A stretch of DNA of 64,000 bases from Hericium rajendrae. Taxonomy: Eukaryota > Basidiomycota > Agaricomycetes > Russulales > Hericiaceae. A program made the position numbers and the translations under genes. Location: contig CM065880.1 in assembly GCA_033439255.1 (NCBI GenBank), positions 2,108,001-2,172,000 of the forward strand, written 5' to 3'. Under the pieces are notes generated by a model. The model saw nothing but the letters and a program-made list of their open reading frames with translations, was not told where the DNA came from and searched no databases. Below, piece by piece: positions 2,138-24,653 of the stretch; positions within the stretch are counted from its first letter, which is position 1, and each line of letters begins with the position of its first letter.

Positions 2138-4087
2138 ATGGACAGCACCAGTGGCTCTCTGCATCACCGCCATCAGTCGAGTTCCACCCGCGCTCAGTCA
2201 CCGTCGTCCTCACCTTCCCAGACGACAGCACATACCCTGGCGCCGACAGAAGACATGATTTCGCCCCGCAGCGGCAACTACGAGCGGCTCGAGGGCGGCC
2301 TGGGCCCCAGTCGCCTGGGCATGCGCAACTTTGCCTGGAAGAAACTCGCGATAGGCGTGGTTGCAGTGGTGGGGCTCCTGTGGGTGCTGACGCCGAGTGA
2401 GAGGATAGACGGGGTGCTGGGTAGTCTGAAGCCTGGTACAGGTACGTATCTTGCTTTGAGGGCGCTTTGCGGGCAAATTGTCTCTTTGCCTTACCTTCGC
2501 GACCGCACAAATAGTTTGGAGAGGTGCTGACGAGCTTCTAAACAGGACGGAAAGGCAAAGATGATACCGATGTAGACTATCAACCCCTTCCGCCTCTCCC
2601 TTCGATACCAGAAGTAACCCATGCCCCCGCCGCCGACGTGGACGTTCCCACCCATCCACATCCTGCCAGCCCCCGCCCCACCTCCCCGAATCTGATCCGG
2701 ACCTGCTCAAGACCGTACACTGTACCTCGCCATACAAGCCCGACGCGCCGCTCGTGCAATATGCACTCATGATTGACGCCGGCTCGACTGGCTCCCGTAT
2801 CCACATCTACAAGTTCCACAACTGCGGGCCCTCGCCGACGTACGAGTACGAGGTATTCCGACGGACGCGCCCAGGGCTGTCTGCATTCGCAGAGCCGCAG
2901 AAGGCCGCCCGGTCGCTCGACGAGCTGCTCGACGCGGCAGTCGATACCGTGCCCGAGGCGCTGTGGTCGTGCACGCCCGTCGCGGTCAAGGCGACCGCGG
3001 GCCTGCGCATGCTGGGCCCCGCGCAGAGCGACGAGATCCTCGCGGCGGTGCGCGAGCGCCTGCGCACGGTCTACCCGTTCCCGCTTGCGGCCGGCGAGCC
3101 CGTGACGATCATGGACGGGAAGGACGAGGGCGTGTATGCGTGGATCACCGGGAACTACCTGCTCGACACGATCCGCGCGGACTCGCCCCGAGGTGCGCCG
3201 CCGTATGCGGTGCTCGACCTCGGCGGCGGGTCGACGCAGATCGTGTTTGAGCCCAAGTTCGACAGCGCGCGGCCGGACGCGGCGCTGGAGGAGGGAGAGC
3301 ACAAGTATGAGCTCAAGTTTGGCGGGCAGACGCATGTGCTGTATCAGCACTCGTATTTGGGGTATGGGCTTATGATGGCGCGAAAGAGCGTGCATGGGCT
3401 CGTGGATTTCATGGCGTCGCTGAGGACGCACGGCAATGGTGCGGAGATTGGCAACCCATGTCTCGCGAAGGGCACACGGAGGGTCGTAGAGATTCGACGG
3501 CCGAACGACGAGAAGGCACAACCTCTTACCAAAGTCACTATGGTCGGAGAGGACATTGGTGGCTTCGAGTCGTGCAACCGCGTGATGCAGCTCGTTATGG
3601 CCAAGGATTCGTACGTGCAAACGTTGATGTTTCGCTCAGTATACTTATGGACACGCGCAGGATCTGCGAGATGAAGCCATGCTCGTTCGACGGCGTCTAC
3701 CAGCCTTCGCTCCTCGACACCTTCCCGAACGGCAAGGTTCTCCTCCTCTCCTACTTCTACGATCGCATCAACCCCCTCATCCGCAACACTACACCTTCGC
3801 CAAAGCTGACTGTCGCCACACTCGCGGACCTTGCCAACGACGTCTGCCTCGGTCGACCATCCTGGGAGAAGCGGTGGGGTAAGGACGCCGCTACAATGTG
3901 GGAGCTCGAGAACCGCCCGGAGTACTGCCTGGACCTGACCTTCATGCATGCGTTGCTGCGGCTCGGGTACGAGTTCAACGATGACAGGGAGGTGGTAATT
4001 GAGCAGAAGATCGAGGGGACTGAGCTCGGCTGGGCGCTGGGCGCTGCGATTGCCCTGGTGGGCGGGGAGTTGACGTGCAAGATTTGA
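2138..4087 (+). pseudogene. GDA1: Guanosine-diphosphatase GDA1, copy 1 (one-base frameshift)
   Basis: GDA1/CD39 family Golgi nucleoside diphosphatase, which hydrolyses GDP to GMP so that GDP-mannose can be exchanged into the Golgi lumen. Exons: 2138-2441, 2546-3610, 3661-4087. Exon 1 gives a cytosolic tail and one signal-anchor helix (LAIGVVAVVGLLWVL). Exon 2 holds the apyrase regions DAGSTGSRIHIYKF, ATAGLR and LDLGGGSTQIVF. Near 2686-2690 this copy has four C where copy 2 has five, so the N-terminal frame runs into a stop before the catalytic domain. Restoring the copy 2 reading would give about 598 aa, a normal family length. The lesion may be a sequencing or assembly error rather than a true mutation, because the rest of the gene is well preserved. 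Confidence 0.8.
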
Positions 4088-4334
4088 ATATTTTATGTGA
4101 TACCATATACGTTGGATAGGTGGATAGATATCTTGCAGGTAGATCCGTATTAGTGCCACTGTTGTCGCATTTATTGTTCTTCGCATACTAGTCGCTGTCG
4201 ACAGCTTTGAGCAGTGCCACAACAATCCCAGCTTGGGCCTACACAGCCTCCAAGGTACGTCTACAATATTCATAGTGAGACGTTTTGCAGAGTAGCCCAT
4301 CTTGGCACTGAAATCCCTTCGCACAGCACTGAGC

Positions 4335-5365
4335 ATGTTCTCATTCCTAGATCGGCGTTCTCGACGCGCACAGAAACAGCCGTACTACCCTCCCCCGCCC
4401 GGCCCTCCGCCAAACCAATTCAATCCACCCGACGCGCCACCACCAGAATGGGCAGCTGCTCCCGAGCGATCGCATACGTACGGTCTAGTAAACGAGGCAT
4501 CGGAGGACGACTGGGAATGGGCTGAGCGGTTCTGCAAAGCCTATCCAGTGAAGCCGCCGGGTCTGCTCAACTCAGACGTGCTCGAGCGCATCAAGGGCCC
4601 CGAGGGATGTGGCCCGTGGACGATGCAATTCTTGAGCCACACAACAGATCGGTTTATAGGAAAGATAGAGACGGACGTGAAGGGCATCGGTGTGGCGGGT
4701 GCGACGAGGGTCAGGACTCAGAAGGGGTGCAAGGACTGCTCCATCACGAGCAACCTGCCAATCGTTGCGGGGATGTATGCGGTGCCGCCGACGGCAAAGG
4801 GCGCATATTTCGAGGTGCGGATCAACAAGATGAAGGGGGTCATCGCGATAGGTATGTCTACGCCTCGCGCACAGTTACTGTCTGACTACAAAGTAACTGC
4901 TATCGCGCAGGCACGGCATGCCTACCGTACCCGTACTTCCGTCTGCCAGGGTGGAACCGCCTCAGCGCAGGTCTGCATCTCGACGATCGGCGCAAGTTTT
5001 TTGAGGATTCGGATGGCGGGCGAGACTATGCGTGTCCTGAAGTGCGCGCAGGGGACATCGTCGGGTGCGGATACGAGTTCGCATCAGGCGAGTTGTTCTT
5101 CACGTACAACGGTGCGCGGCTGCCGCCTGCGTTCCGGGGCATTTACATGCCGCGGCACACGCAAGACGTGTATGCAGCGTTGGGGTTCGAGGGCGAGAAC
5201 GAAGTTGAGGTGAACTTTGGCACGGGCGGTTTTGCCTGGAAGGAGGCGGACAGTAATTATGCGTGGCGCGTGGATGGGCAGGTTGGGGGCCGGTTGGATG
5301 ATGTGCAGGACTCCGGCTCAGAGCAACTGCCTTCGTATATCGAGAGTACCAGCAGGGTGATGTAG
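4335..5365 (+). CDS. SPRY-domain protein, copy 1
   Basis: Two exons, 4335-4851 and 4911-5365, split by a 59-nt intron (GTATGT...GCGCAG), give 323 aa. The N-terminus is Pro/Arg-rich (MFSFLDRRSRR, then PPPPGPPPNQF) without a membrane segment. The C-terminal half is a SPRY/B30.2 fold: AYFEVRI, GTACLPYPYFRLPGWN and DIVGCGYEFASGELFFTYNG are the typical strands. Relatives include Ssh4/Ear1-type adaptors of Rsp5 ubiquitin ligase and RanBPM-like scaffolds, so a protein-binding adaptor role is likely. Yeast Ssh4 is membrane-anchored and this protein is not, so orthology is unproven. It follows GDA1 by 247 bp. Confidence 0.8.
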
Positions 5366-5824
5366 CTGAGCTTGTAGCTGATTCGTTGGCGCCCCGTGTA
5401 TTGTGCCATCAATGTGTCGTACTCTGTACTTCTACTGTATTGTAATACCCATGGAGACTTGATGCAGACCACTATGAGTTCGCGATCATGAATCTGACCT
5501 GTGAAGCTGGTGATTCTAGTGACAAAAGCTAAGGCGCGCATGAGCTATGTAGCCCGAGGTTGGCCCGAGGACATACTGTTCCTTGAGGCGGAGGACGTAC
5601 TTGTTCAATTATGGCATCCTCTGTACAGTGTACTGTATAGGCAGCGTTGGAGCACGGTACTGTCGCAAGATAAGACTGGGAATTATTTGATTTGTTACGT
5701 ACGGGCATGCTCCCCCACACCGTAAGCGCTTAGGAAGAACCAGTTCAGTACTTATTTCGCCTTCCATGCTCTTTCTCCGTGCCACCCCCTCCGTCAAGAC
5801 GACCACGACGGCCAGGACCACGAC
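5366..5824 (+). other. Intergenic, upstream of antiporter copy 1
   Basis: No gene seen. Sequence variation between the two duplicated copies begins to rise here: a 12-bp and a 14-bp length difference and a base change fall in this gap, against almost none upstream. Confidence 0.5.
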
Positions 5825-8800
5825 ATGGCGGGCCTTTCCAGCCATATCATCAGTCTTTTTCATTTTCAGAAGAGGGCAGCCCCCGACCAAGTGCGTTGCT
5901 CGTTGTAATTGTAACCACGCGTGCTGGGATGCTCACTGTATGCGCCATCTAGGGTGGTTCGTTGACGGGGAAAGATCCTACAGAATTTGACCCAGCAGAC
6001 CCACTACGTCTGTGGATCATACAAGTCGGTGCGTATCATGTTCTGATTGTTCGACGCAGTCGACATGTCACATGTGTTCAATTACGCCTCCAACGTTCAT
6101 CGGATGGAGAATCATGCCCTCCGAAGAATTTTCCATTTGTTATCTCTGATTCAGAGTAGTCCCAGTGGTGCTCTATCTGATACGTCAGAAGCCCTCTAAT
6201 CATCGCTTCGACTTCTAGGCATCATCATCCTTACGAGTCAGATTCTCAGCCTCTTGCTCCGTAAAATACGCCAGCCCAGAGTAATAGCCGAGGTTTTAGG
6301 CGGTATCTTGCTGGGCAAGTCCATCTTTCGACGCACGTATCATGTATGCAATGCGGCGCCTTACATACTGTCTCAGGCCCAACTGCGTTCGGACGTATAC
6401 CCGGCTTCTCGAAGCACATATTCCCTCAAGAATCCCAACCATACCTGGCCCTTGTCGCTAATATTGGTCTATGCCTCTTCCTATTCCTCGTTGGCCTCGA
6501 GATAGACACGGCCGTCATCAAGCGCAATGCTCGCCTGTCCGCCACCATTGCTCTGGCGGGCATGGCCATACCCTTCGGTCTGGGCGCCGCTCTCGCCATA
6601 CCGCTCTACAACCAATTCATCGACCCAGCGAAAGTGAAATACACGCACTTCATGCTTTTCACTGGCGTCGCCTACTCTATCACCGCATTTCCCGTGCTCT
6701 GCCGCATCCTGACTGAGCTGAAGCTGCTCGACACGACCGTTGGCATCGTCGTGCTCTCCGCCGGCATTGGGAATGACATCGTCGGCTGGATCCTCCTCGC
6801 ACTCAGCGTCGCACTCGTCAACGCTGGAAGCGGCCTCATCGCGCTCTATATCCTGCTCTGTTGCCTCGGCTGGACTCTCTTCCTGCTCTTCCCTGTGCGC
6901 CATGCGTTCCTATGGCTTGCACGCCGTACGGGCTCAATCGAGAATGGGCCAACTCTCGTCTTCATGACGATCACCATCCTGGTGCTGTTTGGATCGGCAT
7001 TTTTTACTGATGTCATCGGGGTGCATGCTATATTCGGTGCGTTCCTTTTTGTTGGCGAGAAGATGCAGCCCAGTTGAATGTCGCGGTCAGGTGCATTCTT
7101 GGCTGGAGTGGTCGTTCCCCGCGAAGGCGGCCTGGCGATTGCACTTACGGAGAAGTTGGAAGATATGGTGTCCATCATCTTCCTTCCTTTGGTACGTAGA
7201 CAGTTGCCATTCACGCTAGGTACGCGCTTGCTCTCTAACACACGTCATCCCAGTACTTCACCTTCTCCGGACTGTCAACGGACTTGGGCCTCCTCGACAG
7301 TGGTGAGCATAGTCCACGAACCAACGAATAGATCCACGAGACTGACCTCGTGCGATGTCAGGGGAGGTCTGGGGGTTTACGGTGGCCATCTGCGTCCTCG
7401 CATTCACAGGCAAGTTTGGCGCATGTGCGATCGCTGCCAGGATGGCGGGATTCGAATGGCGTGAGGCCAGCACGATCGGATCACTGATGAGCTGCAAGGG
7501 GTGAGTTGGAGGTAGTCTTTTGCTTGCATTTTTAGTGTTCACAAGCTATCTATTCTAGTCTTATCGAGCTGATCGTGCTTAACGTTGGCTTGTCTGCGGG
7601 AATTCTCACAAAGGTACATTCTCCTCGTTGTGACTTGTGTTCATTAAACACTGATTTGTATCAGCGTGTCTTTTCCATGTTTGTTCTTGAAGCTCTCCTG
7701 CTTACGTTCATGACCACACCCACCGTGTCCTTCCTCTATCCTCCCGAACTACGCAAGCGTGTAACCGCGACAGGCTCGCCATACGACAACGTCAACGGTA
7801 AGGGGCGCGACAACGAAACCGGCGGGGTCGAATCACGCCCTAGTGTCACAGGCTCGGGTGTGTGGAAACGTCGCTTCACCGTCGTGCTCGACAAGATCGA
7901 ACACGTACCGGGTATGATGGCACTCACACAGCTCGTGCTTCCGGCACCATCGGAGTATACAGCAAAAGAGAAGAAGACCGGCACAGGCAGGACTGCGAGT
8001 CCAAAAAGCCCGCAAGTCAACGTGGAGATTGACGCGCTGCGGCTCATCGAGCTCTCCGACCGCACATCTGCGGTAATGAAGTCCTCCGCCGTGGATGCGC
8101 TTGTGCACACCGATCCAGCGCTCGCGATCTTTCGCATGTTCGGTGAACTGAACGGCGCAAACGTTGTGCCTTCGCTCGCCATAGTCCCCGCAGAGCAGCT
8201 CGCGACGACCGTCGCTGCGCATGCGCGCACAACAGGCGCACACGTCGTCTTCGTCCCTTGGCTTCCTCCTAGTGCGCCACTGCACGTGTACGCGGAACGC
8301 CCCCCAACGCCCATCGACGAGAAGGACGACCGGGTCCCTGGCCCATTCGACTCGATCTTCCGAGCTGGCCCTGCAGAGCGACCGGCATCGGCACAACACT
8401 CCCACTTCATCCGCAGCGTGTTCGCGCAGGCGGACATGGACGTTGCGCTCTTCGTCGACCGCGGCGTACCTCTAACGGGAACGCACCAACACCTATTCCT
8501 CCCGCTCTTCGGCGGACCGGACGACCGCCTGGCCCTCGAATTCGTCGTCCAGGTCTGCGCGAACCCGCGCGTGTCCGCGACCGTGCTGCGCGTCGTGCGC
8601 CAAGACGTGCCGCCGGAAAGTGCCCTCGTGGAGACGGCGGCCGCGCACATCCAGGACGGCAAGGCGCAACAGCTGCAGAACGAGTATGCGAACGCGCTGA
8701 CGGTCGCCTCGGTGCAGACCGCGTTCCCCGATACGATTTACGGCCACGCGACGACGCAGACGCGGCTGCAGTCGGAGACAGCGGATCAGGTCACCTGGCT

Positions 8801-9146
8801 GCGCTACGCCGCGCCCGCGGCGCCTGAGCCTGAGCTCGCCGCGGCGCTTACGCGCGTCACCTTTGCGGAGCTGTGCACGCATGTGCCGCTGCATGCTGTC
8901 GTGCAGCGTGCGGGCGCGCTGCTGGAGGAGCAGGCGGGTGCTGCGCGCGTGCTGGTCGTTCTGGGGCGCTCGCGCCGCCTGGCGGTGGAAAGCCACCACC
9001 AGGAGTTGAAGGAATTGGGGGAGGAACATGGGGCTGTCGGATCGGAGGTGCGGAAGACGGTGGGGGATGTTGCGACGGCGTTTGTGGTTGCGGGGTGTGC
9101 AGCTGGGTTGGTGGTGATGCAGGCGGCGGATACGGACAGAGATTGA
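5825..9146 (+). CDS. KHA1: K+/H+ antiporter, KHA1/CPA2 type, copy 1
   Basis: Monovalent cation:proton antiporter of the CPA2 family, probably in Golgi or endosomal membranes by analogy with yeast Kha1. Nine exons: 5825-5890, 5953-6028, 6219-6314, 6377-7036, 7091-7191, 7254-7302, 7362-7500, 7559-7613 and 7665-9146 join in frame to 907 aa. The first half holds the Na+/H+ exchanger core with about 12 helices, including VGLEIDTAVIKRNARLSATI, LSAGIGNDIVGW (the GND of the ion site) and FTDVIGVHAIFGAFL. The second half is a long soluble tail with a universal-stress-like layout. Intron 3 (6315-6376) uses a GC donor (GCAAGT). The start was chosen at 5825 because it splices in frame to the conserved DPLRLWIIQ segment. 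This copy is intact; copy 2 is not. Confidence 0.85.
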
Positions 9147-9610
9147 TGCATCTTGGTAGGGCTGCTTGGTGCAGCACCATTCACGGAGATGAGCTTCAAC
9201 GCTCACCGGAGTATGGACGCCTTGTTCCATTCGGGTTTGTACACGGTACCAATTACGACTCTATGATTCTTTGATGATTCCCCATATTTTTGCATCGTTC
9301 ACACGACGTCTATACCCCAAATATATATATCCATAGCTCATCCCAAGCTCATTCGTATGTTCTCATCATTGAAATCCTCTTTGCCCATAGTCAAGAAGAC
9401 TGATGGGAGGTACCAGATCCGTTTCATGTTTATATTGTGTTGCATACATGTGCTGCCTGCTGTCGGACACATGCAATGGCGGAGTCATTTCATAACATAT
9501 GCTTATGTGTGGACCAGGAAACAAGCCAAGGAAGAGAACAAGATGAATAGATACCGGGGAAAATACAGTGAGAACAGATAATGAACAGATAAGAGGAGAG
9601 AAGGGTAAGA
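9147..9610. other. Convergent 3' flanks of antiporter and NOP56
   Basis: This gap between two convergent genes contains an AT-rich stretch (ATATATAT near 9321) and no supported gene. It is the same in both copies of the duplication. Confidence 0.5.
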
Positions 9611-11449
9611 TTACTCCTTTGTCTTCGCCTTCTTCTCTTTCTTCTCCTTTTTCTCCTTTTTCGAGGATTTTCCCTAAGCAAACAACACGTCAGATGCGGC
9701 CCTATGGTCCAGATCAACAAGACACATACCTCCGCCACATCCTTCTCCTTGTGCTCCTTCTTTTTCTCCTTCTTTAACGCCTTCTTCTCCTCCTTGGACA
9801 GCTTCACCTTCTTCACAGGCTCGCCCTCCTCGTCCGTATCCATATCGTCGCTCTTGCGCTTCTTCTTGTCCTTCTTCACCGGCGACGCCTCAATAAGCGG
9901 CAATATTGGCTCCTCGTTGGCGTCCGCCATGTCAACGTCTTCGTCCTCCTCTTCCGCGAGCGCGTCGAGCACCTTCCTGATCGCATCCGAGTTCTTCGCC
10001 GGCGGCGCACCGGTCTCGAAGAAGTTCAGCCGCTCCTCAACCTGCTGTTTAAGCGCCTCGCCGAACTTCGCTGTGGGGGTATCTGTGCAAGGCAAGGCAT
10101 ATGAAGGTTAGTCGTGTACCGTGCGTGAAGCGAGGCAAGCGGGGTAATACCGGTGAAGCAGTCTATCCGCGAGGCGATCGAGCACTTGTTGGCGAGGAAG
10201 CGCGAGATGCGGCCCTTGTGCTTCGGTTGCGCACGCCCGATGAACGACGAGTGGTAGATAAGGCCGTACTGTGAATGGAGAAAACAATCGAGCGGCATAA
10301 GTGAGCAGCGTGTATTTCACATGCGATGGCGCGGACTGATGTCACTGACCTTGGGCGTGTTGCCCTTCGTTTTGAGAGCCCGGAAAAGCGCCTTCTCGGC
10401 GCCGAGGATCTGCACTGTGCTGGCAGGGTACTTGCTCAGGTTCGTCAAGCTGCCCGCGTGGCTGATAAGCCGGGCACCAATGCGCTCGCCGAGGAGTGCG
10501 GTCAGACTGGGCGCGACGAGGTTCATTTTCTCGGTGAGGTAGGCGGTAAGTGACTTGCGGTACTCGGCGATGGAGACGACGCGCGCAGCGAAGGCAGAGA
10601 TATTGAGCATGTCGATCTCGGACAGCGCGGAGCCCATCGAGCCGTTTGCGGCGTCGAGCACGTTCTGAGCCCGGGTTTTGTCATCGTCCAGCAATGCAGC
10701 CAGTTCGGGGAGCTTCTCCTCGTTGAGCGTCTCCTTCGGCCCAATGAACTGCGCCACTTTGGCATATTGGTAGTTGTCGGGGACGATTTTGACAAGCTCT
10801 GGGAAGTGATAACCATACCACTCGCGTATCCGCATCGAGAAGAGGTTGACGTCTTTATCGAGTTGGTCGAGGAGCGCGATCGCCTGGATGATCATGTTAT
10901 CGACCCTGTTCACGTTGAACTTCAACTTCGAGCGGGAATACGAGTGGCCCAGGCCAAGCTGGGCCTTGGTGAGGTCGTCGGACTGCAGGCCCTTGAGCAG
11001 TTTAGTTGCATGGAATCGGATGCCGCGCAGGAGCTCGACGGTTGACTCCGAAGCGTCGCAGCTGATACCAACTGCTGCTTTTATAGAGTTGCCGAGGATG
11101 GGTTCAGAGACGCCAAGGACAACTTTTGACTTTTTCGTTGGCTTGACCAAGTTAAGCTCGAGGAGGGATTTCAGGTCCTCGTTCACGAGACCTGTCAAGC
11201 AGAGATAAAGACTACATCATTGTCATGTTCCACCAAAGACGCACCTTCTGAGATATCGTTCGCATTCTCCAATGCATGGGCAGCGCTCTTGAATGGAGAA
11301 AAGCTCACCAGCGACACCATTTTGCCAAATTTCGCCAGGTCCTGAATGGAGTCTTGGACGGCCTTGGTGGAGGCCGCAATCTCCTCCTTGAGCTTGACTT
11401 CGAAGATGGCATAGCCAGACGCTGATTCAAAAAGAACGTGAGTCGCCAT
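9611..11449 (-). CDS. NOP56: Box C/D snoRNP core protein NOP56, copy 1
   Basis: Nucleolar core protein of box C/D snoRNPs, needed for rRNA 2'-O-methylation and 60S assembly. Minus-strand exons, 5' to 3': 11449-11245, 11191-10350, 10268-10151, 10082-9730 and 9673-9611, total 526 aa, the usual size. An N-terminal NOP5NT domain ([19 protein letters not shown]) precedes a coiled coil and the Nop domain, with the [20 protein letters not shown] signature and, across the next splice, [20 protein letters not shown]. The C-terminus is a KKxK-rich tail ([11 protein letters not shown]) typical of Nop56/Nop58. All introns are GT-AG and 50-80 nt. The two copies are identical over this gene. It is divergent from a 36-codon small ORF about 180 bp away. 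Confidence 0.93.
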
Positions 11450-11628
11450 CGGGGAGGGTCGTCGTCGTCGTACACAGCGTCAAGACTCAGAGTCGTTTGA
11501 CTCAACGGAAACTTTTGGTTCGGCAATTACCGAAATGCACCCCTTTCCTTTTTCGTCACTCAACACCTCTGCTCCACAACTGCTCCAGCCTCCGCCACGC
11601 ACGTTTTGCTACCTCAACCAACTACAGC
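11450..11628. promoter_or_regulatory. Presumed NOP56 promoter, copy 1
   Basis: A 179-bp gap between the NOP56 start and a divergent small ORF. It is pyrimidine-rich on the plus strand and shows no clear TATA box. The promoter role is inferred from position only. Confidence 0.3.
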
Positions 11629-11739
11629 ATGCTGTCCATACAAGATTCGTTAAATTCCGCTTCTTCTTTTGTTTCCGACGTTCAATTCTTTGATGCTATC
11701 GAGACTTCTGTAAAACATATGGGCCTTGTCCAGCCCTGA
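11629..11739 (+). CDS. Small ORF, 36 aa, copy 1
   Basis: An ATG ORF of 36 codons beginning MLSIQDSLNSASSF and ending GLVQP. It lies divergent to NOP56 and is identical in copy 2 (22347-22457). No family was recognised and no CaaX ending is present, so a pheromone precursor is unlikely. It could be a microprotein, a first exon of an unresolved gene, or chance. Confidence 0.2.
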   Translation: MLSIQDSLNSASSFVSDVQFFDAIETSVKHMGLVQP

Positions 11740-12749
11740 TAGTGGTCCTTGACCTCGGTTTTAGGCTGCGGATACCATCTGAACTTCTGCGTCCTAGGAC
11801 TGTCAATCCAGCGCTAGCTAACTTGGCTATTTTTGAAGTGCACTGCTTCTATCCATTTGCTGTGGCGGGCGTCACGCCCGTCTCGATCATCCAATTCTAT
11901 TGCTAGTTTTCATCTTCTACTTTGGCTTCCGGCTGTATAGGCGTATCGCCCAATCTTCTCGTCTCGCCTTGATCTATGGACCCAAGTGATACGTGCCTGC
12001 GCTTCAAGCCCTGACATCACGAGCTGTACCCTGACTTCACATCGCCACACGTAAGTATCCCTGCTGTGCTTGTACTTGGGTTCCATATACGAGTACAAGT
12101 TGGCGTGGACTGGCCAGAGTATCATAGCGATAAGGGTTCGATAGTCAGGATCCGTCGCCGACGCCTTCCTGGCAGCGTGGACACGTACGTACACCAGCGG
12201 GTGTCCGTCAGAAATCGAGACGCCCTCGGAAAGCTTGCGGGCGCGGAACATCATTCAGTTGGCAGTGCCACCGGGAGAGGTGCCTTTGGCATTGGCGCCA
12301 GCGATAACCTGGGAGTATCAAGTGACATGCAGAATGTCCGGAAGACGGGATGGGATTGGTTCTACAACATATGGCCCGGTTAAGGAAGACGATTACGCCG
12401 TATCTGCCTCGTGTAGAACTTGAGGATGTGGTATATCACTGCACAAGATACAGCCGCCCCTCTGACCACGTCCCTCGCTCCCGTTCGTATCCTACGTTCA
12501 TATACATAGGTCGAACCCAAAGCGCGGGGGCCCCGTGGGCCAACCAGGTTGTGCAGGTCGTAACGTTTAAACTTCCATCCTTCTGTGACGAACAGGTAGC
12601 GTTTCTTCTGCCCTCGATCACGTATAATCAGCCGTACTGACTGTCTTTTGCCTTTGCTATCTGCCTTGCGCAGGACGCCCGGTCCTCCTCTGGTTCCTCT
12701 TCCCCCTCGTTTCGGAATACCTGCATATTGCCAAATACTTGATACCGCC
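11740..12749. other. Unresolved segment upstream of DUF6699, copy 1
   Basis: About 1 kb with overlapping medium ORFs on both strands (minus 12380-12640 and 11910-12254; plus 12350-12640), none resembling a known family. The matching stretch in copy 2 has 103 extra bases with a minus-strand ATG followed by a strong GTAAGT donor. A small spliced minus-strand gene is therefore possible, but it cannot be modelled with confidence. Confidence 0.3.
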
Positions 12750-13171
12750 ATGCTCAAGAGAATGAAGGAGTCTTTCACATCGACCCCCCAGGCGCCGCGG
12801 ATGGGCAAGATCCCACTTCCAGACGTGCGGGAGAGGACCCGCCCGCGCCCCATGAATCGGAGATGCCCAAGATACCGCGTAGTGCTCGGCGCCAACCCTT
12901 GAGCTCGCTGCCAGAATGACGGCTACTCAACATCGCCAGAGGCATCGTCGAGCAGGCCATCTGCCCAGCCGGCGTCGAGGTGCGGCGTCCCTCCGATGCA
13001 CGTGTCCCGCCCACGCCGAAGGGAATTCTCAAGCGTGCAGGTGCGTCTTCCTCTACCTTATCATCAGTATGTTCATGTGCATTCGCGTCCGAACATGACG
13101 GGAGACACCAGCGAGGGCGACTGTCCGGCTTCAGGAACTGGACGGATATGCTTCTCTCCCGAAGCACATTC
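12750..13171 (+). pseudogene. DUF6699 gene fragment, copy 1, cut by duplication join
   Basis: This is the 5' part of the gene found whole at 23572-24653. It begins MLKRMKESFTSTPQAPRMGK, then differs from copy 2 by several one-base insertions or deletions and stops matching at about 13171, inside what is exon 2 in copy 2. The DUF6699 domain itself is absent. The join then runs straight into a piece of GDA1 exon 1. The unusual density of single-base indels in the last 500 bases suggests poor-quality sequence at a contig end. Confidence 0.75.
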
Positions 13172-13172
13172 C

Positions 13173-14836
13173 CTCAGTCACCGTCGTCCTCACCTTCCCA
13201 GACGACAGCACATACCCTGGCGCCGTTGTCTCTTTGCCTTACCTTCGCGACCGCACAAATAGTTTGGAGAGGTGCTGACGAGCTTCTAAACAGGACGGAA
13301 AGGCAAAGATGATACCGATGTAGACTATCAACCCCTTCCGCCTCTCCCTTCGATACCAGAAGTAACCCATGCCCCCGCCGCCGACGTGGACGTTCCCACC
13401 CATCCACATCCTGCCAGCCCCCGCCCCACCTCCCCCGAATCTGATCCGGACCTGCTCAAGACCGTACACTGTACCTCGCCATACAAGCCCGACGCGCCGC
13501 TCGTGCAATATGCACTCATGATTGACGCCGGCTCGACTGGCTCCCGTATCCACATCTACAAGTTCCACAACTGCGGGCCCTCGCCGACGTACGAGTACGA
13601 GGTATTCCGACGGACGCGCCCAGGGCTGTCTGCATTCGCAGAGCCGCAGAAGGCCGCCCGGTCGCTCGACGAGCTGCTCGACGCGGCAGTCGATACCGTG
13701 CCCGAGGCGCTGTGGTCGTGCACGCCCGTCGCGGTCAAGGCGACCGCGGGCCTGCGCATGCTGGGCCCCGCGCAGAGCGACGAGATCCTCGCGGCGGTGC
13801 GCGAGCGCCTGCGCACGGTCTACCCGTTCCCGCTTGCGGCCGGCGAGCCCGTGACGATCATGGACGGGAAGGACGAGGGCGTGTATGCGTGGATCACCGG
13901 GAACTACCTGCTCGACACGATCCGCGCGGACTCGCCCCGAGGTGCGCCGCCGTATGCGGTGCTCGACCTCGGCGGCGGGTCGACGCAGATCGTGTTTGAG
14001 CCCAAGTTCGACAGCGCGCGGCCGGACGCGGCGCTGGAGGAGGGAGAGCACAAGTATGAGCTCAAGTTTGGCGGGCAGACGCATGTGCTGTATCAGCACT
14101 CGTATTTGGGGTATGGGCTTATGATGGCGCGAAAGAGCGTGCATGGGCTCGTGGATTTCATGGCGTCGCTGAGGACGCACGGCAATGGTGCGGAGATTGG
14201 CAACCCATGTCTCGCGAAGGGCACACGGAGGGTCGTAGAGATTCGACGGCCGAACGACGAGAAGGCACAACCTCTTACCAAAGTCACTATGGTCGGAGAG
14301 GACATTGGTGGCTTCGAGTCGTGCAACCGCGTGATGCAGCTCGTTATGGCCAAGGATTCGTACGTGCAAACGTTGATGTTTCGCTCAGTATACTTATGGA
14401 CACGCGCAGGATCTGCGAGATGAAGCCATGCTCGTTCGACGGCGTCTACCAGCCTTCGCTCCTCGACACCTTCCCGAACGGCAAGGTTCTCCTCCTCTCC
14501 TACTTCTACGATCGCATCAACCCCCTCATCCGCAACACTACACCTTCGCCAAAGCTGACTGTCGCCACACTCGCGGACCTTGCCAACGACGTCTGCCTCG
14601 GTCGACCATCCTGGGAGAAGCGGTGGGGTAAGGACGCCGCTACAATGTGGGAGCTCGAGAACCGCCCGGAGTACTGCCTGGACCTGACCTTCATGCATGC
14701 GTTGCTGCGGCTCGGGTACGAGTTCAACGATGACAGGGAGGTGGTAATTGAGCAGAAGATCGAGGGGACTGAGCTCGGCTGGGCGCTGGGCGCTGCGATT
14801 GCCCTGGTGGGCGGGGAGTTGACGTGCAAGATTTGA
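13173..14836 (+). pseudogene. GDA1: GDA1 copy 2, lacking exon 1 and promoter
   Basis: Exons 2 and 3 (13294-14359 and 14410-14836) keep an open frame through every apyrase region, because this copy has the extra C that copy 1 lacks. However, 13225 is joined to sequence inside intron 1, so the start codon, the signal anchor, the splice donor and the promoter are all missing. Without an anchor or signal peptide the catalytic domain would not reach the Golgi. The first in-frame ATG downstream (13386) lies in the stem region. As printed it is a 5'-truncated gene. The complementary damage in copy 1 argues that one correct allele has been split between two badly joined contigs. Confidence 0.8.
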
Positions 14837-15083
14837 ATATTTTATGTGATACCATATACGTTGGATAGGTGGATAGATATCTTGCAGGTAGATCCGTATT
14901 AGTGCCACTGTTGTCGCATTTATTGTTCTTCGCATACTAGTCGCTGTCGACAGCTTTGAGCAGTGCCACAACAATCCCAGCTTGGGCCTACACAGCCTCC
15001 AAGGTACGTCTACAATATTCATAGTGAGACGTTTTGCAGAGTAGCCCATCTTGGCACTGAAATCCCTTCGCACAGCACTGAGC

Positions 15084-16114
15084 ATGTTCTCATTCCTAGA
15101 TCGGCGTTCTCGACGCGCACAGAAACAGCCGTACTACCCTCCCCCGCCCGGCCCTCCGCCAAACCAATTCAATCCACCCGACGCGCCACCACCAGAATGG
15201 GCAGCTGCTCCCGAGCGATCGCATACGTACGGTCTAGTAAACGAGGCATCGGAGGACGACTGGGAATGGGCTGAGCGGTTCTGCAAAGCCTATCCAGTGA
15301 AGCCGCCGGGTCTGCTCAACTCAGACGTGCTCGAGCGCATCAAGGGCCCCGAGGGATGTGGCCCGTGGACGATGCAATTCTTGAGCCACACAACAGATCG
15401 GTTTATAGGAAAGATAGAGACGGACGTGAAGGGCATCGGTGTGGCGGGTGCGACGAGGGTCAGGACTCAGAAGGGGTGCAAGGACTGCTCCATCACGAGC
15501 AACCTGCCAATCGTTGCGGGGATGTATGCGGTGCCGCCGACGGCAAAGGGCGCATATTTCGAGGTGCGGATCAACAAGATGAAGGGGGTCATCGCGATAG
15601 GTATGTCTACGCCTCGCGCACAGTTACTGTCTGACTACAAAGTAACTGCTATCGCGCAGGCACGGCATGCCTACCGTACCCGTACTTCCGTCTGCCAGGG
15701 TGGAACCGCCTCAGCGCAGGTCTGCATCTCGACGATCGGCGCAAGTTTTTTGAGGATTCGGATGGCGGGCGAGACTATGCGTGTCCTGAAGTGCGCGCAG
15801 GGGACATCGTCGGGTGCGGATACGAGTTCGCATCAGGCGAGTTGTTCTTCACGTACAACGGTGCGCGGCTGCCGCCTGCGTTCCGGGGCATTTACATGCC
15901 GCGGCACACGCAAGACGTGTATGCAGCATTGGGGTTCGAGGGCGAGAACGAAGTTGAGGTGAACTTTGGCACGGGCGGTTTTGCCTGGAAGGAGGCGGAC
16001 AGTAATTATGCGTGGCGCGTGGATGGGCAGGTTGGGGGCCGGTTGGATGATGTGCAGGACTCCGGCTCAGAGCAACTGCCTTCGTATATCGAGAGTACCA
16101 GCAGGGTAATGTAG
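15084..16114 (+). CDS. SPRY-domain protein, copy 2
   Basis: Same two-exon structure as 4335-5365 (exons 15084-15600 and 15660-16114, 323 aa), intact. It differs from copy 1 by about two bases, at the codon in DVYAALGFE (synonymous) and next to the stop. Function as for copy 1: a SPRY-fold adaptor, perhaps for ubiquitin-dependent membrane-protein sorting. Confidence 0.78.
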
Positions 16115-16547
16115 CTGATTCGTTGGCGCCCCGTGTATTGTGCCATCAATGTGTCGTACTCTGTACTTCTACTGTATTGTAATACCCATGGAGACTTGAT
16201 GCAGACCACTATGAGTTCGCGATCATGAATCTGACCTGTGAAGCTGGTGATTCTAGTGACGAAAGCTAAGGCGCGCATGAGCTATGTAGCCCGAGGTTGG
16301 CCCGAGGACATACTGTTCCTTGAGGCGGAGGACGTACTTGTTCAATTATGGCATCCTCTGTACAGTGTACTGTATAGGCAGCGTTTCGCAAGATAAGACT
16401 GGGAATTATTTGATTTGTTACGTACGGGCATGCTCCCCCACACCGTAAGCGCTTAGGAAGAACCAGTTCAGTACTTATTTCGCCTTCCATGCTCTTTCTC
16501 CGTGCCACCCCCTCCGTCAAGACGACCACGACGGCCAGGACCACGAC

Positions 16548-19500
16548 ATGGCGGGCCTTTCCAGCCATATCATCAGTCTTTTTCATTTTCAGAAGAGGGC
16601 AGCCCCCGACCAAGTGCGTTGCTCATTGTAATTGTAACCACGCGTACTGGGATGCTCACTGTATGCGCCATCTAGGGTGGTTCGTTGACGGGGAAAGATC
16701 CTACAGAATTTGACCCAGCAGACCCACTACGTCTGTGGATCATACAAGTCGGTGCGTATCATGTTCTGATTGTTCGACGCAGTCGATATGTCACATGTGT
16801 TCGATTACGCCTCCAACGTTCATCGGATGGAGAATCATGCCCTCCGAAGAATTTTCCATTTGTTATCTCTGATCAAGGAGTCCCAGTGGTGCTCTATCTG
16901 ATACGTCAGAAGCCCTTCTAATCATCGCTTCGACTTCTAGGCATCATCATCCTTACGAGTCAGATTCTCAGCCTCTTGCTCCGTAAAATACGCCAGCCCA
17001 GAGTAATAGCCGAGGTTTTAGGCGGTATCTTGCTGGGCAAGTCCATCTTTCGACGCACGTATCATGTATGCAATGCGGCGCCTTACATACTGTCTCAGGC
17101 CCAACTGCGTTCGGACGTATACCCGGCTTCTCGAAGCACATATTCCCTCAAGAATCCCAACCATACCTGGCCCTTGTCGCTAATATTGGTCTATGCCTCT
17201 TTCTATTCCTCGTTGGCCTCGAGATAGACACGGCCGTCATCAAGCGCAATGCTCGCCTGTCCGCCACCATTGCTCTGGCGGGCATGGCCATACCCTTCGG
17301 TCTGGGCGCCGCTCTCGCCATACCGCTCTACAACCAATTCATCGACCCAGCGAAAGTGAAATACACGCACTTCATGCTTTTCACTGGCGTCGCCTACTCT
17401 ATCACCGCATTTCCCGTGCTTTGCCGCATCCTGACTGAGCTGAAGCTGCTCGACACGACCGTTGGCATTGTCGTGCTCTCCGCCGGCATTGGGAATGACA
17501 TCGTCGGCTGGGTCCTCCTCGCACTCAGCGTCGCACTCGTCAACGCTGGAAGCGGCCTCATCGCGCTCTATATCCTGCTCTGTTGCCTCGGCTGGACCCT
17601 CTTCCTGCTCTTCCCTGTGCGCCATGCGTTCCTATGGCTTGCACGCCATACGGGCTCAATCGAGAATGGGCCAACTCTCGTCTTCATGACGATGACCATC
17701 CTGGTGCTGTTTGGATCGGCATTTTTTACTGATGTCATCGGGGTGCATGCTATATTCGGTGCGTTCCTTTTTGTTGGCGAGAAGATGCAGCCCAGTTGAA
17801 TGTCGCGGTCAGGTGCATTCTTGGCTGGAGTGGTCGTTCCCCGCGAAGGCGGCCTGGCGATTGCACTTACGGAGAAGTTGGAAGATATGGTGTCCATCAT
17901 CTTCCTTCCTTTGGTACGTAGACAGTTGCCATTCACGCTAGGTACGCGCTTGCTCTCTAACACACGTCATCCCAGTACTTCACCTTCTCCGGACTGTCAA
18001 CGGACTTGGGCCTCCTCGACAGTGGTGAGCATAGTCCACGAACCAACGAATAGATCAACGAGACTGACCTCGTGCGATGTCAGGGGAGGTCTGGGGGTTT
18101 ACGGTGGCCATCTGCGTCCTCGCGTTCACAGGCAAGTTTGGCGCATGTACGATCGCTGCCAGGATGGCGGGATTCGAATGGCGTGAGGCCAGCACGATCG
18201 GATCACTGATGAGCTGCAAAGGGTGAGTTGGAGGTAGTTTTTTGCTTGCATTTTAAGTGTTCACAAGCTATTTATTCTAGTCTTATCGAGCTGATCGTCC
18301 TTAACGTTGGCTTGTCTGCGGGAATTCTCACAAAGGTACATTCTCCTTGTTGTGACTTGTGTTCATTAAACACTGATTTGTATCAGCGTGTATTTTCCAT
18401 GTTTGTTCTTGAAGCTCTCCTGCTTACGTTCATGACCACACCCACCGTGTCCTTCCTCTATCCTCCCGAACTACGCAAGCGTGTAACCGCGACAGCCTCG
18501 CCATACGACAACGTCAACGGTAAGGGGCGCGACAACGAAACCGGCGGGGTCGAATCACGTCCTAGTGTCACAGGCTCGGGTGTGTGGAAACGTCGCTTCA
18601 CCGTCGTGCTCGACAAGATCGAACACGTACCGGGTATGATGGCACTCACACAGCTCGTGCTTCCGGCGCCATCGGAGTATACAGCAAAGAGAAGAAAGCC
18701 GGCACAGGCAGGACTGCGAGTCCAAAAAGCCCGCAAGTCAAGTGGAGATTGACGCGCTGCGGCTCATCGAACTCTCCGACCGCACGTCTGCGGTGATGAA
18801 GTCCTCCGCCGTGGACGCCCTTGTGCACACCGATCCAGCGCTTGCGATCTTTCGTATGTTCGGTGAATTGAACGGCGCAAACGTTGTGCCTTCGCTCGCC
18901 ATAGTCCCCGCGGAGCAGCTCGCGACGACCGTCGCTGCGCATGCGCGCACAACAGGCGCACACGTCGTCTTCGTCCCTTGGCTTCCTCCTAGTGCGCCAG
19001 TGCACGTGTACGCGGAACGCCCCCAACGCCCATCGACGAGAAGGACGACCGTGTCCCTGGCCCATTCGATTCGATCTTCCGAGCTGGCCCCGCAGAGCGA
19101 CCGGCATCGGCACAACACTCCCACTTCATCCGCAGCGTGTTCGCGCAGGCGGACATGGACGTTGCGCTCTTCGTCGACCGCGGCGTACCTCTAACGGGAA
19201 CGCACCAACACCTATTCCTTCCGTTCTTCGGCGGACCGGACGACCGCCTGGCCCTCGAATTCGTCGTCCAGGTCTGCGCGAACCCGCGCGTGTCCGCGAC
19301 CGTGCTGCGCGTCGTGCGCCAAGACGTGCCGCCGGAAAGTGCCCTCGTGGAGACGGCGGGCGCGCACATCCAGGACGGCAAGGCGCAACAGCTGCAGAAC
19401 GAGTATGCGAACGCGCTGACGGTCGCCTCGGTGCAGACCGCGTTCCCCGATACGATTTACGGCCACGCGACGACGCAGACGCGGCTGCAGTCGGAGACAG

Positions 19501-19864
19501 CGGATCAGGTCACCTGGCTGCGCTACGCCGCGCCCGCGGCGCCTGAGCCTGAGCTCGCCGCGGCGCTTACGCGCGTCACCTTTGCGGAGCTGTGCACGCA
19601 TGTGCCGCTGCATGCTGTCGTGCAGCGTGCGGCGCGCTGCTGGAGGAGCAGGCGGGTGCTGCGCGCGTGCTGGTCGTTCTGGGGCGCTCGCGCCGCCTGG
19701 CGGTGGAAAGCCACCACCAGGAGTTGAAGGAATTGGGGGAGGAACATGGGGCTGTCGGATCGGAGGTGCGGAAGACGGTGGGGGATGTTGCGACGGCGTT
19801 TGTGGTTGCGGGGTGTGCAGCTGGGTTGGTGGTGATGCAGGCGGCGGATACGGACAGAGATTGA
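16548..19864 (+). pseudogene. KHA1: KHA1-type antiporter, copy 2, frameshifted
   Basis: The membrane half is preserved, including the GND ion-site motif and the GC-AG intron 3, with mostly synonymous differences from copy 1. The soluble tail is broken by at least four one-base differences: near 18688, 18741, 19024 and 19632 by comparison with copy 1. The reading frame is lost first around residue EYTAK. The substitutions are mainly at third positions, as expected of a diverged allele or paralogue. The single-base length changes sit mostly in or beside short base runs, so part of the damage could be sequencing error. Confidence 0.75.
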
Positions 19865-20328
19865 TGCATCTTGGTAGGGCTGCTTGGTGCAGCACCATTC
19901 ACGGAGATGAGCTTCAACGCTCACCGGAGTATGGACGCCTTGTTCCATTCGGGTTTGTACACGGTACCAATTACGACTCTATGATTCTTTGATGATTCCC
20001 CATATTTTTGCATCGTTCACACGACGTCTATACCCCAAATATATATATCCATAGCTCATCCCAAGCTCATTCGTATGTTCTCATCATTGAAATCCTCTTT
20101 GCCCATAGTCAAGAAGACTGATGGGAGGTACCAGATCCGTTTCATGTTTATATTGTGTTGCATACATGTGCTGCCTGCTGTCGGACACATGCAATGGCGG
20201 AGTCATTTCATAACATATGCTTATGTGTGGACCAGGAAACAAGCCAAGGAAGAGAACAAGATGAATAGATACCGGGGAAAATACAGTGAGAACAGATAAT
20301 GAACAGATAAGAGGAGAGAAGGGTAAGA

Positions 20329-22167
20329 TTACTCCTTTGTCTTCGCCTTCTTCTCTTTCTTCTCCTTTTTCTCCTTTTTCGAGGATTTTCCCTAAGCAAA
20401 CAACACGTCAGATGCGGCCCTATGGTCCAGATCAACAAGACACATACCTCCGCCACATCCTTCTCCTTGTGCTCCTTCTTTTTCTCCTTCTTTAACGCCT
20501 TCTTCTCCTCCTTGGACAGCTTCACCTTCTTCACAGGCTCGCCCTCCTCGTCCGTATCCATATCGTCGCTCTTGCGCTTCTTCTTGTCCTTCTTCACCGG
20601 CGACGCCTCAATAAGCGGCAATATTGGCTCCTCGTTGGCGTCCGCCATGTCAACGTCTTCGTCCTCCTCTTCCGCGAGCGCGTCGAGCACCTTCCTGATC
20701 GCATCCGAGTTCTTCGCCGGCGGCGCACCGGTCTCGAAGAAGTTCAGCCGCTCCTCAACCTGCTGTTTAAGCGCCTCGCCGAACTTCGCTGTGGGGGTAT
20801 CTGTGCAAGGCAAGGCATATGAAGGTTAGTCGTGTACCGTGCGTGAAGCGAGGCAAGCGGGGTAATACCGGTGAAGCAGTCTATCCGCGAGGCGATCGAG
20901 CACTTGTTGGCGAGGAAGCGCGAGATGCGGCCCTTGTGCTTCGGTTGCGCACGCCCGATGAACGACGAGTGGTAGATAAGGCCGTACTGTGAATGGAGAA
21001 AACAATCGAGCGGCATAAGTGAGCAGCGTGTATTTCACATGCGATGGCGCGGACTGATGTCACTGACCTTGGGCGTGTTGCCCTTCGTTTTGAGAGCCCG
21101 GAAAAGCGCCTTCTCGGCGCCGAGGATCTGCACTGTGCTGGCAGGGTACTTGCTCAGGTTCGTCAAGCTGCCCGCGTGGCTGATAAGCCGGGCACCAATG
21201 CGCTCGCCGAGGAGTGCGGTCAGACTGGGCGCGACGAGGTTCATTTTCTCGGTGAGGTAGGCGGTAAGTGACTTGCGGTACTCGGCGATGGAGACGACGC
21301 GCGCAGCGAAGGCAGAGATATTGAGCATGTCGATCTCGGACAGCGCGGAGCCCATCGAGCCGTTTGCGGCGTCGAGCACGTTCTGAGCCCGGGTTTTGTC
21401 ATCGTCCAGCAATGCAGCCAGTTCGGGGAGCTTCTCCTCGTTGAGCGTCTCCTTCGGCCCAATGAACTGCGCCACTTTGGCATATTGGTAGTTGTCGGGG
21501 ACGATTTTGACAAGCTCTGGGAAGTGATAACCATACCACTCGCGTATCCGCATCGAGAAGAGGTTGACGTCTTTATCGAGTTGGTCGAGGAGCGCGATCG
21601 CCTGGATGATCATGTTATCGACCCTGTTCACGTTGAACTTCAACTTCGAGCGGGAATACGAGTGGCCCAGGCCAAGCTGGGCCTTGGTGAGGTCGTCGGA
21701 CTGCAGGCCCTTGAGCAGTTTAGTTGCATGGAATCGGATGCCGCGCAGGAGCTCGACGGTTGACTCCGAAGCGTCGCAGCTGATACCAACTGCTGCTTTT
21801 ATAGAGTTGCCGAGGATGGGTTCAGAGACGCCAAGGACAACTTTTGACTTTTTCGTTGGCTTGACCAAGTTAAGCTCGAGGAGGGATTTCAGGTCCTCGT
21901 TCACGAGACCTGTCAAGCAGAGATAAAGACTACATCATTGTCATGTTCCACCAAAGACGCACCTTCTGAGATATCGTTCGCATTCTCCAATGCATGGGCA
22001 GCGCTCTTGAATGGAGAAAAGCTCACCAGCGACACCATTTTGCCAAATTTCGCCAGGTCCTGAATGGAGTCTTGGACGGCCTTGGTGGAGGCCGCAATCT
22101 CCTCCTTGAGCTTGACTTCGAAGATGGCATAGCCAGACGCTGATTCAAAAAGAACGTGAGTCGCCAT
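20329..22167 (-). CDS. NOP56: Box C/D snoRNP core protein NOP56, copy 2
   Basis: Identical by eye to 9611-11449, with the same five exons shifted by 10718 and 526 aa. All domains are present: NOP5NT, coiled coil, Nop domain and Lys-rich tail. Two complete identical copies of a normally single-copy essential ribosome-biogenesis gene in 11 kb are unusual. This supports either a very recent duplication or an artificial one. Confidence 0.9.
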
Positions 22168-22346
22168 CGGGGAGGGTCGTCGTCGTCGTACACAGCGTCA
22201 AGACTCAGAGTCGTTTGACTCAACGGAAACTTTTGGTTCGGCAATTACCGAAATGCACCCCTTTCCTTTTTCGTCACTCAACACCTCTGCTCCACAACTG
22301 CTCCAGCCTCCGCCACGCACGTTTTGCTACCTCAACCAACTACAGC

Positions 22347-22457
22347 ATGCTGTCCATACAAGATTCGTTAAATTCCGCTTCTTCTTTTGTTTCCGACGTT
22401 CAATTCTTTGATGCTATCGAGACTTCTGTAAAACATATGGGCCTTGTCCAGCCCTGA
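22347..22457 (+). CDS. Small ORF, 36 aa, copy 2
   Basis: Identical to 11629-11739 and likewise divergent from NOP56. No family recognised. Confidence 0.2.
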   Translation: MLSIQDSLNSASSFVSDVQFFDAIETSVKHMGLVQP

Positions 22458-23571
22458 TAGTGGTCCTTGACCTCGGTTTTAGGCTGCGGATACCATCTGA
22501 ACTTCTGCGTCCTAGGACTGTCAATCCAGCGCTAGCTAACTTGGCTATTTTTGAAGTGCACTGCTTCTATCCATTTGCTGTGGCGGGCGTCACGCCCGTC
22601 TCGATCATCCAATTCTATTGCTAGTTTTCATCTTCTACTTTGGCTTCCGGCTGTATAGGCGTATCGCCCAATCTTCTCGTCTCGCCTTGATCTATGGACC
22701 CAAGTGATACGTGCCTGCGCTTCAAGCCCTGACATCACGAGCTGTACCCTGACTTCACATCGCCACACGTAAGTATCCCTGCTGTGCTTGTACTTGGGTT
22801 CCATATACGAGTACAAGTTGGCGTGGACTGGCCAGAGTATCATAGCGATATGAAGATTTGGCAGCCAGTTTGATTTGCGAGCCGCATTAACGCGGACTTA
22901 CCCCTCCTTTCTGATGCTGGCACTCATGATTACACCAATCGAGATCTATTGAAAGGGTTCGATAGTCAGGATCCGTCGCCGACGCCTTCCTGGCAGCGTG
23001 GACACGTACGTACACCAGCGGGTGTCCGTCAGAAATCGAGACGCCCTCGGAAAGCTTGCGGGCGCGGAACATCATTCAGTTGGCAGTGCCACCGGGAGAG
23101 GTGCCTTTGGCATTGGCGCCAGCGATAACCTGGGAGTATCAAGTGACATGCAGAATGTCCGGAAGACGGGATGGGATTGGTTCTACAACATATGGCCCGG
23201 TTAAGGAAGACGATTACGCCGTATCTGCCTCGTGTAGAACTTGAGGATGTGGTATATCACTGCACAAGATACAGCCGCCCCTCTGACCACGTCCCTCGCT
23301 CCCGTTCGTATCCTACGTTCATATACATAGGTCGAACCCAAAGCGCGGGGGCCCCGTGGGCCAACCAGGTTGTGCAGGTCGTAACGTTTAAACTTCCATC
23401 CTTCTGTGACGAACAGGTAGCGTTTCTTCTGCCCTCGATCACGTATAATCAGCCGTACTGACTGTCTTTTGCCTTTGCTATCTGCCTTGCGCAGGACGCC
23501 CGGTCCTCCTCTGGTTCCCTCTTCCCCCTCGTTTCGGAATACCTGCATATTGCCAAATACTTGATACCGCC
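22458..23571. other. Unresolved segment upstream of DUF6699, copy 2
   Basis: Equivalent of 11740-12749 but with 103 additional bases at 22851-22953. On the minus strand the extra piece contains an ATG, eight more codons and a GTAAGT splice-donor sequence. No protein family could be recognised on either strand. Confidence 0.3.
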
Positions 23572-24653
23572 ATGCTCAAGAGAATGAAGGAGTCTTTCAC
23601 ATCGACCCCCCAGGCGCCGCGGATGGGCAAGATCCCACTTCCAGACGTGCGGGGAGAGGACCCGCCCGCGCCCCATGAATCGGAGATGCCCAAGATACCG
23701 CGTAGTGCTCGGCGCCAACCCTTGAGCTCGCTGCAGAATGACGGCTACTCAACATCGCCAGAGGCATCGTCGAGCAGGCCATCTGCCCAGCCGGCGTCGA
23801 GGGTGCGGCGTCCCTCCGATGCACGTGTCCCGCCCACGCCGAAGGGAATTCTCAAGCGTGCAGGTGCGTCTTTCGTCTACCTTATCATCAGTATGTTCAT
23901 GTGCATTCGCGTCCGAACATGACAGGGGAGACACCAGCGAGGGCGACTGTCCGGCTTCAGGAACTGGACGGATATGCTTCCTCTCCAGAGAAGCACATTC
24001 CATCCAGGACACACCGTGGTCATGCCCCACACCAAAGCGAGACCACGGCTGTCGACTCGATCCGAGGTACTATCTTCCTGTCCCTTTAGTCTATCTCATC
24101 TTGCTGGTACTCACAGTATCTTCACTCAGCTCCAATCACATTGCACTGGAAGCTCCTGCCGTATAACGACATGCGTTCAAAGTTCCACTTGGTCTTCGAT
24201 ATGAGATTCAATGCCGATTTAATCGGCCTTGTTAACTCTCGGTACCAACGTCGACCTCTCGAAGCTGCTGACCGCGTAAAGCTCGCGTCGAGTCCGCCAG
24301 TCCGGGAGATGACGATCCGCTGCGCGGAGCTGGAAGATTGGCCCATCTACGTCGAGTCGAGCACCGGCATCACCTGCTTCGATGTCTTCAGTGCTATTCA
24401 TGAGCAATTGAGCACTCCTCTCACGAAATTCGAGCGGAACGGGAAGTCCGAACGTATCGCTCAGTGTCACGCCTCTTTCGAGGAACGCTGCCGCCAGGTG
24501 TCTATGAACGAGAGGGCGAAGGGTTATCGCCGGTTCGACCTCCTCGCCGACAAGAGCTTCTTCAACGGGTTGGACTGGGTACCTCCGTCAAAGGAGCACC
24601 CAGGCGGACACTGGGCTCTGAAGTTGGCCACAGCAAAGGAGCTTTTTGTCTGA
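23572..24653 (+). CDS. DUF6699-domain protein
   Basis: Three exons, 23572-23863, 23926-24066 and 24130-24653, give 318 aa. The first two exons encode a disordered, Ser/Pro/Arg-rich region (ARRQPLSSLQNDGYSTSP). The third holds the DUF6699 domain, recognised by HWKLLPYNDMRSKFHLVFDM, the ATxPP-like SSPPVREMTIRC strand, and ITCFDVFSAIHEQLSTPL. The domain is common and expanded in Agaricomycetes and its function is unknown. The splice after ILKRA restores frame to GETPARATVRLQELDGY, which favours this model over other frames. This is the only complete copy; the one at 12750 is truncated. Confidence 0.75.

Follow-up and report, generated by a model that had tools for sequence, protein, structure and literature searches.

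A tandem pair of 11-kb units in a Hericium rajendrae contig is very probably two haplotypes of one locus joined by the assembler

A stretch of 64,000 nucleotides from Hericium rajendrae (assembly GCA_033439255.1, contig CM065880.1, positions 2,108,001 to 2,172,000; hereafter the window, numbered from its first letter) carries two adjacent units, A and B, which hold sequence of the same five genes: a GDA1/CD39-family gene (GDA1), a SPRY-domain gene, a KHA1-like cation/proton antiporter gene, a NOP56-like gene and a DUF6699 gene. The pair is very probably a false tandem duplication, in which two haplotypes of one locus were joined by the assembler; this explanation is favoured because the units share an allele-like core between substitution-free ends, because small insertions and deletions (indels) crowd towards the join, because copy B has lost 232 bp near the join, and because the join itself is blunt and free of repeats. 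Self-comparison by BLAST and alignment with MAFFT show the copies to be direct, head-to-tail units (Table 1), bearing out the original prediction of a duplication of about 10.98 kb together with its coordinates, and the A/B pair is the sole repeat in the window at E <1e-10. That prediction had left the choice between a very recent segmental duplication and assembler-joined haplotypes of a dikaryon; the second option is the one favoured here, but the argument from complete identity was wrong outside the stretch that contains NOP56.

Complete identity of the two copies is rejected, since the two main BLAST blocks are 99.18% and 98.86% identical (a third, of 53 bp, is 100% identical) and the MAFFT alignment contains, beside 10,662 identical columns, 53 substitutions, of which 42 are transitions and 11 are transversions, and 18 indels: 16 small ones of 1-14 bp, to which all counts of small indels below refer, and two blocks of 232 bp and 103 bp. 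NOP56 does lie within an identical run, the longest in the alignment (3,219 bp, 8913-12131; the next is 2,495 bp, 2684-5178), so that the identity claimed for this gene stands, whereas the units as a whole differ.

Divergence along the unit

Divergence along the unit forms a mosaic, with 1.4% in an allele-like core and substitution-free ends: all 48 substitutions before position 13050 are confined to 5179-8641, a third of the unit, and MAFFT aligns A and B with no substitution in 2478-5178 (2,701 bp) or in 8642-13049 (about 4.4 kb). Were the 48 substitutions spread evenly over 2478-12694, the probability that every one would fall in the core is about 3e-23; the density of the core predicts about 94 for the remainder of that interval, where 0 are observed. 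The even divergence along the unit expected of one event from one template is not found, and a variant core with identical opposite ends, a trait of heterotype false duplications, is present.

The core differences look like natural alleles, and the separation of copies by allele-like variants is likewise a trait of heterotype false duplications. They comprise 37 transitions and 11 transversions; among the 35 in coding sequence, 26 are silent and 26 lie at third positions, where chance would make about 30% silent (binomial 8e-8; expectation computed on KHA1 only, with a transition weight of 4). Two of the 35 coding changes are in the SPRY gene, and in KHA1 alone 24 of 33 are silent. The core changes most probably date from a time when the two versions both worked.

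Outside the core, a 103-bp block is found in copy B only (22851-22953), with no second copy elsewhere in the window. It lies within sequence that has no substitutions and may be either a real haplotype indel or a loss from the consensus of copy A.

The join and the inner ends

There are no N letters anywhere in the window, and so none at the A/B join, where 0 nt are common to the join and the continuation of either parent edge. Neither a repeat nor microhomology was found at the unit edges: the best match between 1893-2493 and 23701-24301 is 9 bp long, inverted, with E 1.1, and the edge regions are alike only in such chance-level matches of 8-9 bp. Duplication between flanking repeats was rejected because self-comparison of the window and of the edge regions found no such repeats. 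The repeat or microhomology expected at the breakpoints of a real tandem duplication is absent; a real join could also have formed by homology-free end joining.

The inner ends appear to be poor-quality parts of both copies, as contig ends with little read support would be, because copy A ends in an indel-rich tract and copy B begins with 53 bp of the unit and then lacks the 232 bp corresponding to 2246-2477, at a junction that is also blunt. A heterotype false duplication would have a gap or unsupported sequence between its copies; here no N is present, and the indel-rich end of A and the 232-bp loss in B may or may not reflect such sequence. Seven small indels out of 16 lie in the inner end of A, at 12695, 12828, 12911, 12978, 13051, 13099 and 13160, although this end makes up 478 of 10,748 bp (binomial 2.8e-6, for a zone picked post hoc); the five substitutions there are confined to the last 123 bp, and the final 18 bp hold four of the five. 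The ratio of indels to substitutions is 7:5 in 12695-13172 versus 8:48 in 5179-8912 (Fisher 0.003), the latter block extending beyond the last core substitution at 8641 to include the fourth single-base deletion in KHA1 of copy B. Several of the small indels look like consensus errors.

Genes of the units and their flanks

Pfam supports the presence of all five domains (GDA1_CD39, Na_H_Exchanger for KHA1, Nop for NOP56, DUF6699 and SPRY). The five genes are not all intact in both copies: GDA1 in B, KHA1 in B and the DUF6699 gene in A are damaged. The names KHA1 and NOP56 given in the original prediction fit the Pfam domains, and the latter gene may be NOP56 or a close relative of it. Both outer edges of the pair fall inside genes, again as predicted; GDA1 is interrupted downstream of its start codon on the left and the DUF6699 gene on the right, so that these outer genes extend to their true ends only on the side of a flank.

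Table 1. Positions in the window of the two units, their diverged and inner parts, and their genes
Feature	Positions	Strand	Evidence or remark
Copy A of unit	2193..13172 (10,980 bp)	+	self-BLAST and MAFFT alignment
Copy B of unit	13173..24001 (10,829 bp)	+	self-BLAST and MAFFT alignment
Join of A and B	13172..13173	.	blunt, no N; edge sequences
Inner end of copy A	12695..13172	+	7 small indels, 5 substitutions; breaks 5' exon of DUF6699 gene
First 53 bp of copy B	13173..13225	+	equal to 2193-2245; then loss of 232 bp
Diverged core, copy A	5179..8641 (3,463 bp)	+	48 substitutions; 26/35 coding ones silent
Diverged core, copy B	15928..19360	+	MAFFT alignment
Block in copy B only	22851..22953 (103 bp)	+	between NOP56 and DUF6699 gene; MAFFT
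GDA1/CD39-family gene, copy A	2138..4087	+	PF01150 3e-66; starts 55 bp before unit
GDA1/CD39-family gene, copy B	13294..14836	+	from second exon onward; open reading frames and frame; start by MAFFT offset
SPRY-domain gene, copy A	4335..5365	+	2 exons, gene model; PF00622 3.6e-17
SPRY-domain gene, copy B	15084..16114	+	open; gene-model script
KHA1-like antiporter gene, copy A	5825..9146	+	9 exons, open; PF00999 2.3e-25 on one exon
KHA1-like gene, copy B	16548..19864	+	four single-base deletions, last exon; coordinates by MAFFT offset
NOP56-like gene, copy A	9611..11449	-	PF01798 3.8e-61; gene model
NOP56-like gene, copy B	20329..22167	-	identical to A; within run matching 8913-12131
DUF6699 gene 5' fragment, copy A	12750..13172	+	frame-broken, cut by join
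DUF6699 gene, copy B	23572..24653	+	PF20415 2e-24; runs into single-copy right flank

According to the gene-model script, SPRY and NOP56 are open in A and B alike. KHA1 has an open frame of 907 residues in A and is frame-broken in B, by single-base deletions in stretches of one repeated letter that are 4, 1, 6 and 3 long; four such deletions in one copy, despite constraint on the gene, were counted for false duplication. GDA1 in B is without a start codon, most of the first exon and the membrane segment, and GDA1 in A is probably one C short near 2683, a frame break that the script bypassed by an alternative splice. The 5' exon of the DUF6699 gene has an open frame in B where that of A is broken, and the script recovered only part of the B gene.

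The KHA1 intron at 6315-6376 in copy A has a GC-AG border (GCAAGT...TCTCAG); GC-AG introns are a known, less common splice type. Searches that detect close relatives only gave 44 pattern matches for one KHA1 exon against bacterial and archaeal genomes and 9 for one NOP56 exon against viral contigs, none of which was confirmed. NCBIfam returned 0 families for the two proteins submitted, and in a literature search on NOP56 copy number NOP56 was unmentioned among the matches listed.

Left of the unit, an open frame at 80-1501 has a basic leucine-zipper-like C-terminal end, which we take to resemble Gcn4-like bZIP factors; it matches 0 Pfam families at E 0.001. The right flank (27619-63672) contains ordinary genes by Pfam: a MYND-finger protein, a proteasomal ATPase, NCA2, RFT1, Yae1 and dynactin p62, these being the 6 loci above the cut-off when 30 of 65 candidate coding open reading frames right of 24000 were put to Pfam, one more having been screened separately. 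Four of the six (the proteasomal ATPase, NCA2, RFT1 and dynactin p62, the last with a free end near the window edge) served as a control for the gene-model script, which required no frameshift in any of them, a result counted for false duplication.

Explanations for the tandem pair and known cases

Under the favoured explanation, a single-copy locus would have been assembled as two contig ends overlapping by about 11 kb, one per haplotype (nucleus) and differing across the 3.5-kb core; in place of being overlapped, these ends would have been placed one after the other in the same orientation and fused gaplessly. Copy A would then be the right end of the left contig and copy B the left end of the right contig. 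The source would contain two haplotypes, the frame-breaking indels would be consensus errors, and the A/B join would be carried by no DNA molecule. DUF6699 would be consistent with a basidiomycete source, and the original prediction had supposed a dikaryon.

Several observations weigh against joined haplotypes. The join has no N gap, whereas in Ko et al. 2022 (PMC9516828) a gap most often lies between the copies of a false duplication; at 11 kb the unit is also long beside the cases in Kelley and Salzberg 2010 (PMC2864568), which are mostly <2 kb, although a few extend to 28 kb. The substitution-free ends of 2.7 kb and 4.4 kb require either true haplotype identity or a likeness made by polishing, and a 103-bp difference in a substitution-free stretch is compatible with a false or a real duplication. 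As a control for frameshifts the script is weak: part of the training set for its codon table came from the same genes, and it reported 1 frameshift in KHA1 of copy B versus 4 aligned deletions, bridging others by false introns.

A real recent tandem duplication, in which unequal exchange or end joining between the two homologous chromosomes of a heterozygous fungus would have left A and B as parental alleles, is unlikely. It agrees with a continuous join without N, exchange between homologues would also give allele-like core differences, and repair could have copied the 53 bp at the join from a template; the small indels would then reflect sequencing errors confined to the region or decay of the gene fragments beside the join. 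Decay, however, should yield mainly substitutions, whereas before its last 23 bp the inner end of A shows 6 small indels versus 1 substitution, and the truncated GDA1 in B shows zero substitutions and a single 1-bp difference across 13226-14836; decay of truncated gene fragments was considered as the source of the indels and is unsupported by this pattern. A real exchange is rated low because of the indel crowding at the join, the four deletions in KHA1 of copy B and the blunt join without repeats. It is just as improbable that the nuclei of a dikaryon underwent an exchange, blunt and without repeats, which fixed both KHA1 alleles, doubled NOP56 on one chromosome and left a templated scar of 53 bp.

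Less probable still is a real but older tandem duplication in which gene conversion homogenised the outer parts and left one diverged core. The sharp mosaic of 0% and 1.4% divergence would follow, and a silent-site bias suits two long-functional copies, but KHA1 in B has its four single-base deletions despite that signature of constraint, the identical tracts cover intergenic sequence and the truncated GDA1 fragment, and the indel crowding at the join is left unexplained. The least probable explanation is a homotype false duplication, in which reads full of errors at a contig boundary yielded two versions of one haplotype and all differences are sequencing errors. A unit of 11 kb is within long-read range, which counts for this explanation, as do the error-like indels near the join. 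Rhie et al. 2021 (PMC8081667) describe homotype duplications that are about as long as reads and lie at contig boundaries. Against it, the 48 core substitutions are transition-rich and mostly silent where coding, unlike random errors.

If the pair is an artefact, gene counts at the locus are inflated, with the ribosome-biogenesis gene NOP56 and the antiporter seemingly doubled, and the broken GDA1, KHA1 and DUF6699 fragments mimic pseudogenes; an allele-like core, identical ends and small indels crowding towards a join would constitute a read-free signature of such errors. If it were real, it would be a fresh case of exchange between two nuclei. The tandem pair should not be taken as a real gene duplication on the assembled sequence alone.

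Segmental duplications that arose spontaneously in budding yeast (Payen et al. 2008, PMC2518615) resemble the pair in that direct tandem arrangements are among them, but repeats, microsatellites or microhomology at their breakpoints are held responsible for them, and no such feature was found here. Heterokaryotic Laccaria assemblies (PMC10995626) hold both nuclear versions and look duplicated; unlike the present pair, their duplicates are fragmented contigs and not a tandem join. The diverged core, identical flanks and poor inner ends of the pair match the published type of duplicated overlapping contigs (PMC2864568), in which heterozygous sequence is split into two contigs, each with homozygous ends, at a median identity of 98.1%: there as here, neighbouring stretches about 98-99% identical have heterozygous sequence that adjoins homozygous sequence at opposite ends, the present pair differing in its gapless join and in a unit longer than most of those. 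The heterotype and homotype false duplications (PMC8081667, PMC9516828) were demonstrated by read depth and k-mers and are mostly gapped, whereas the pair described here is gapless; it shares with those false duplications adjacent copies, haplotype-like variants, an error-like boundary, and truncated or falsely doubled genes.
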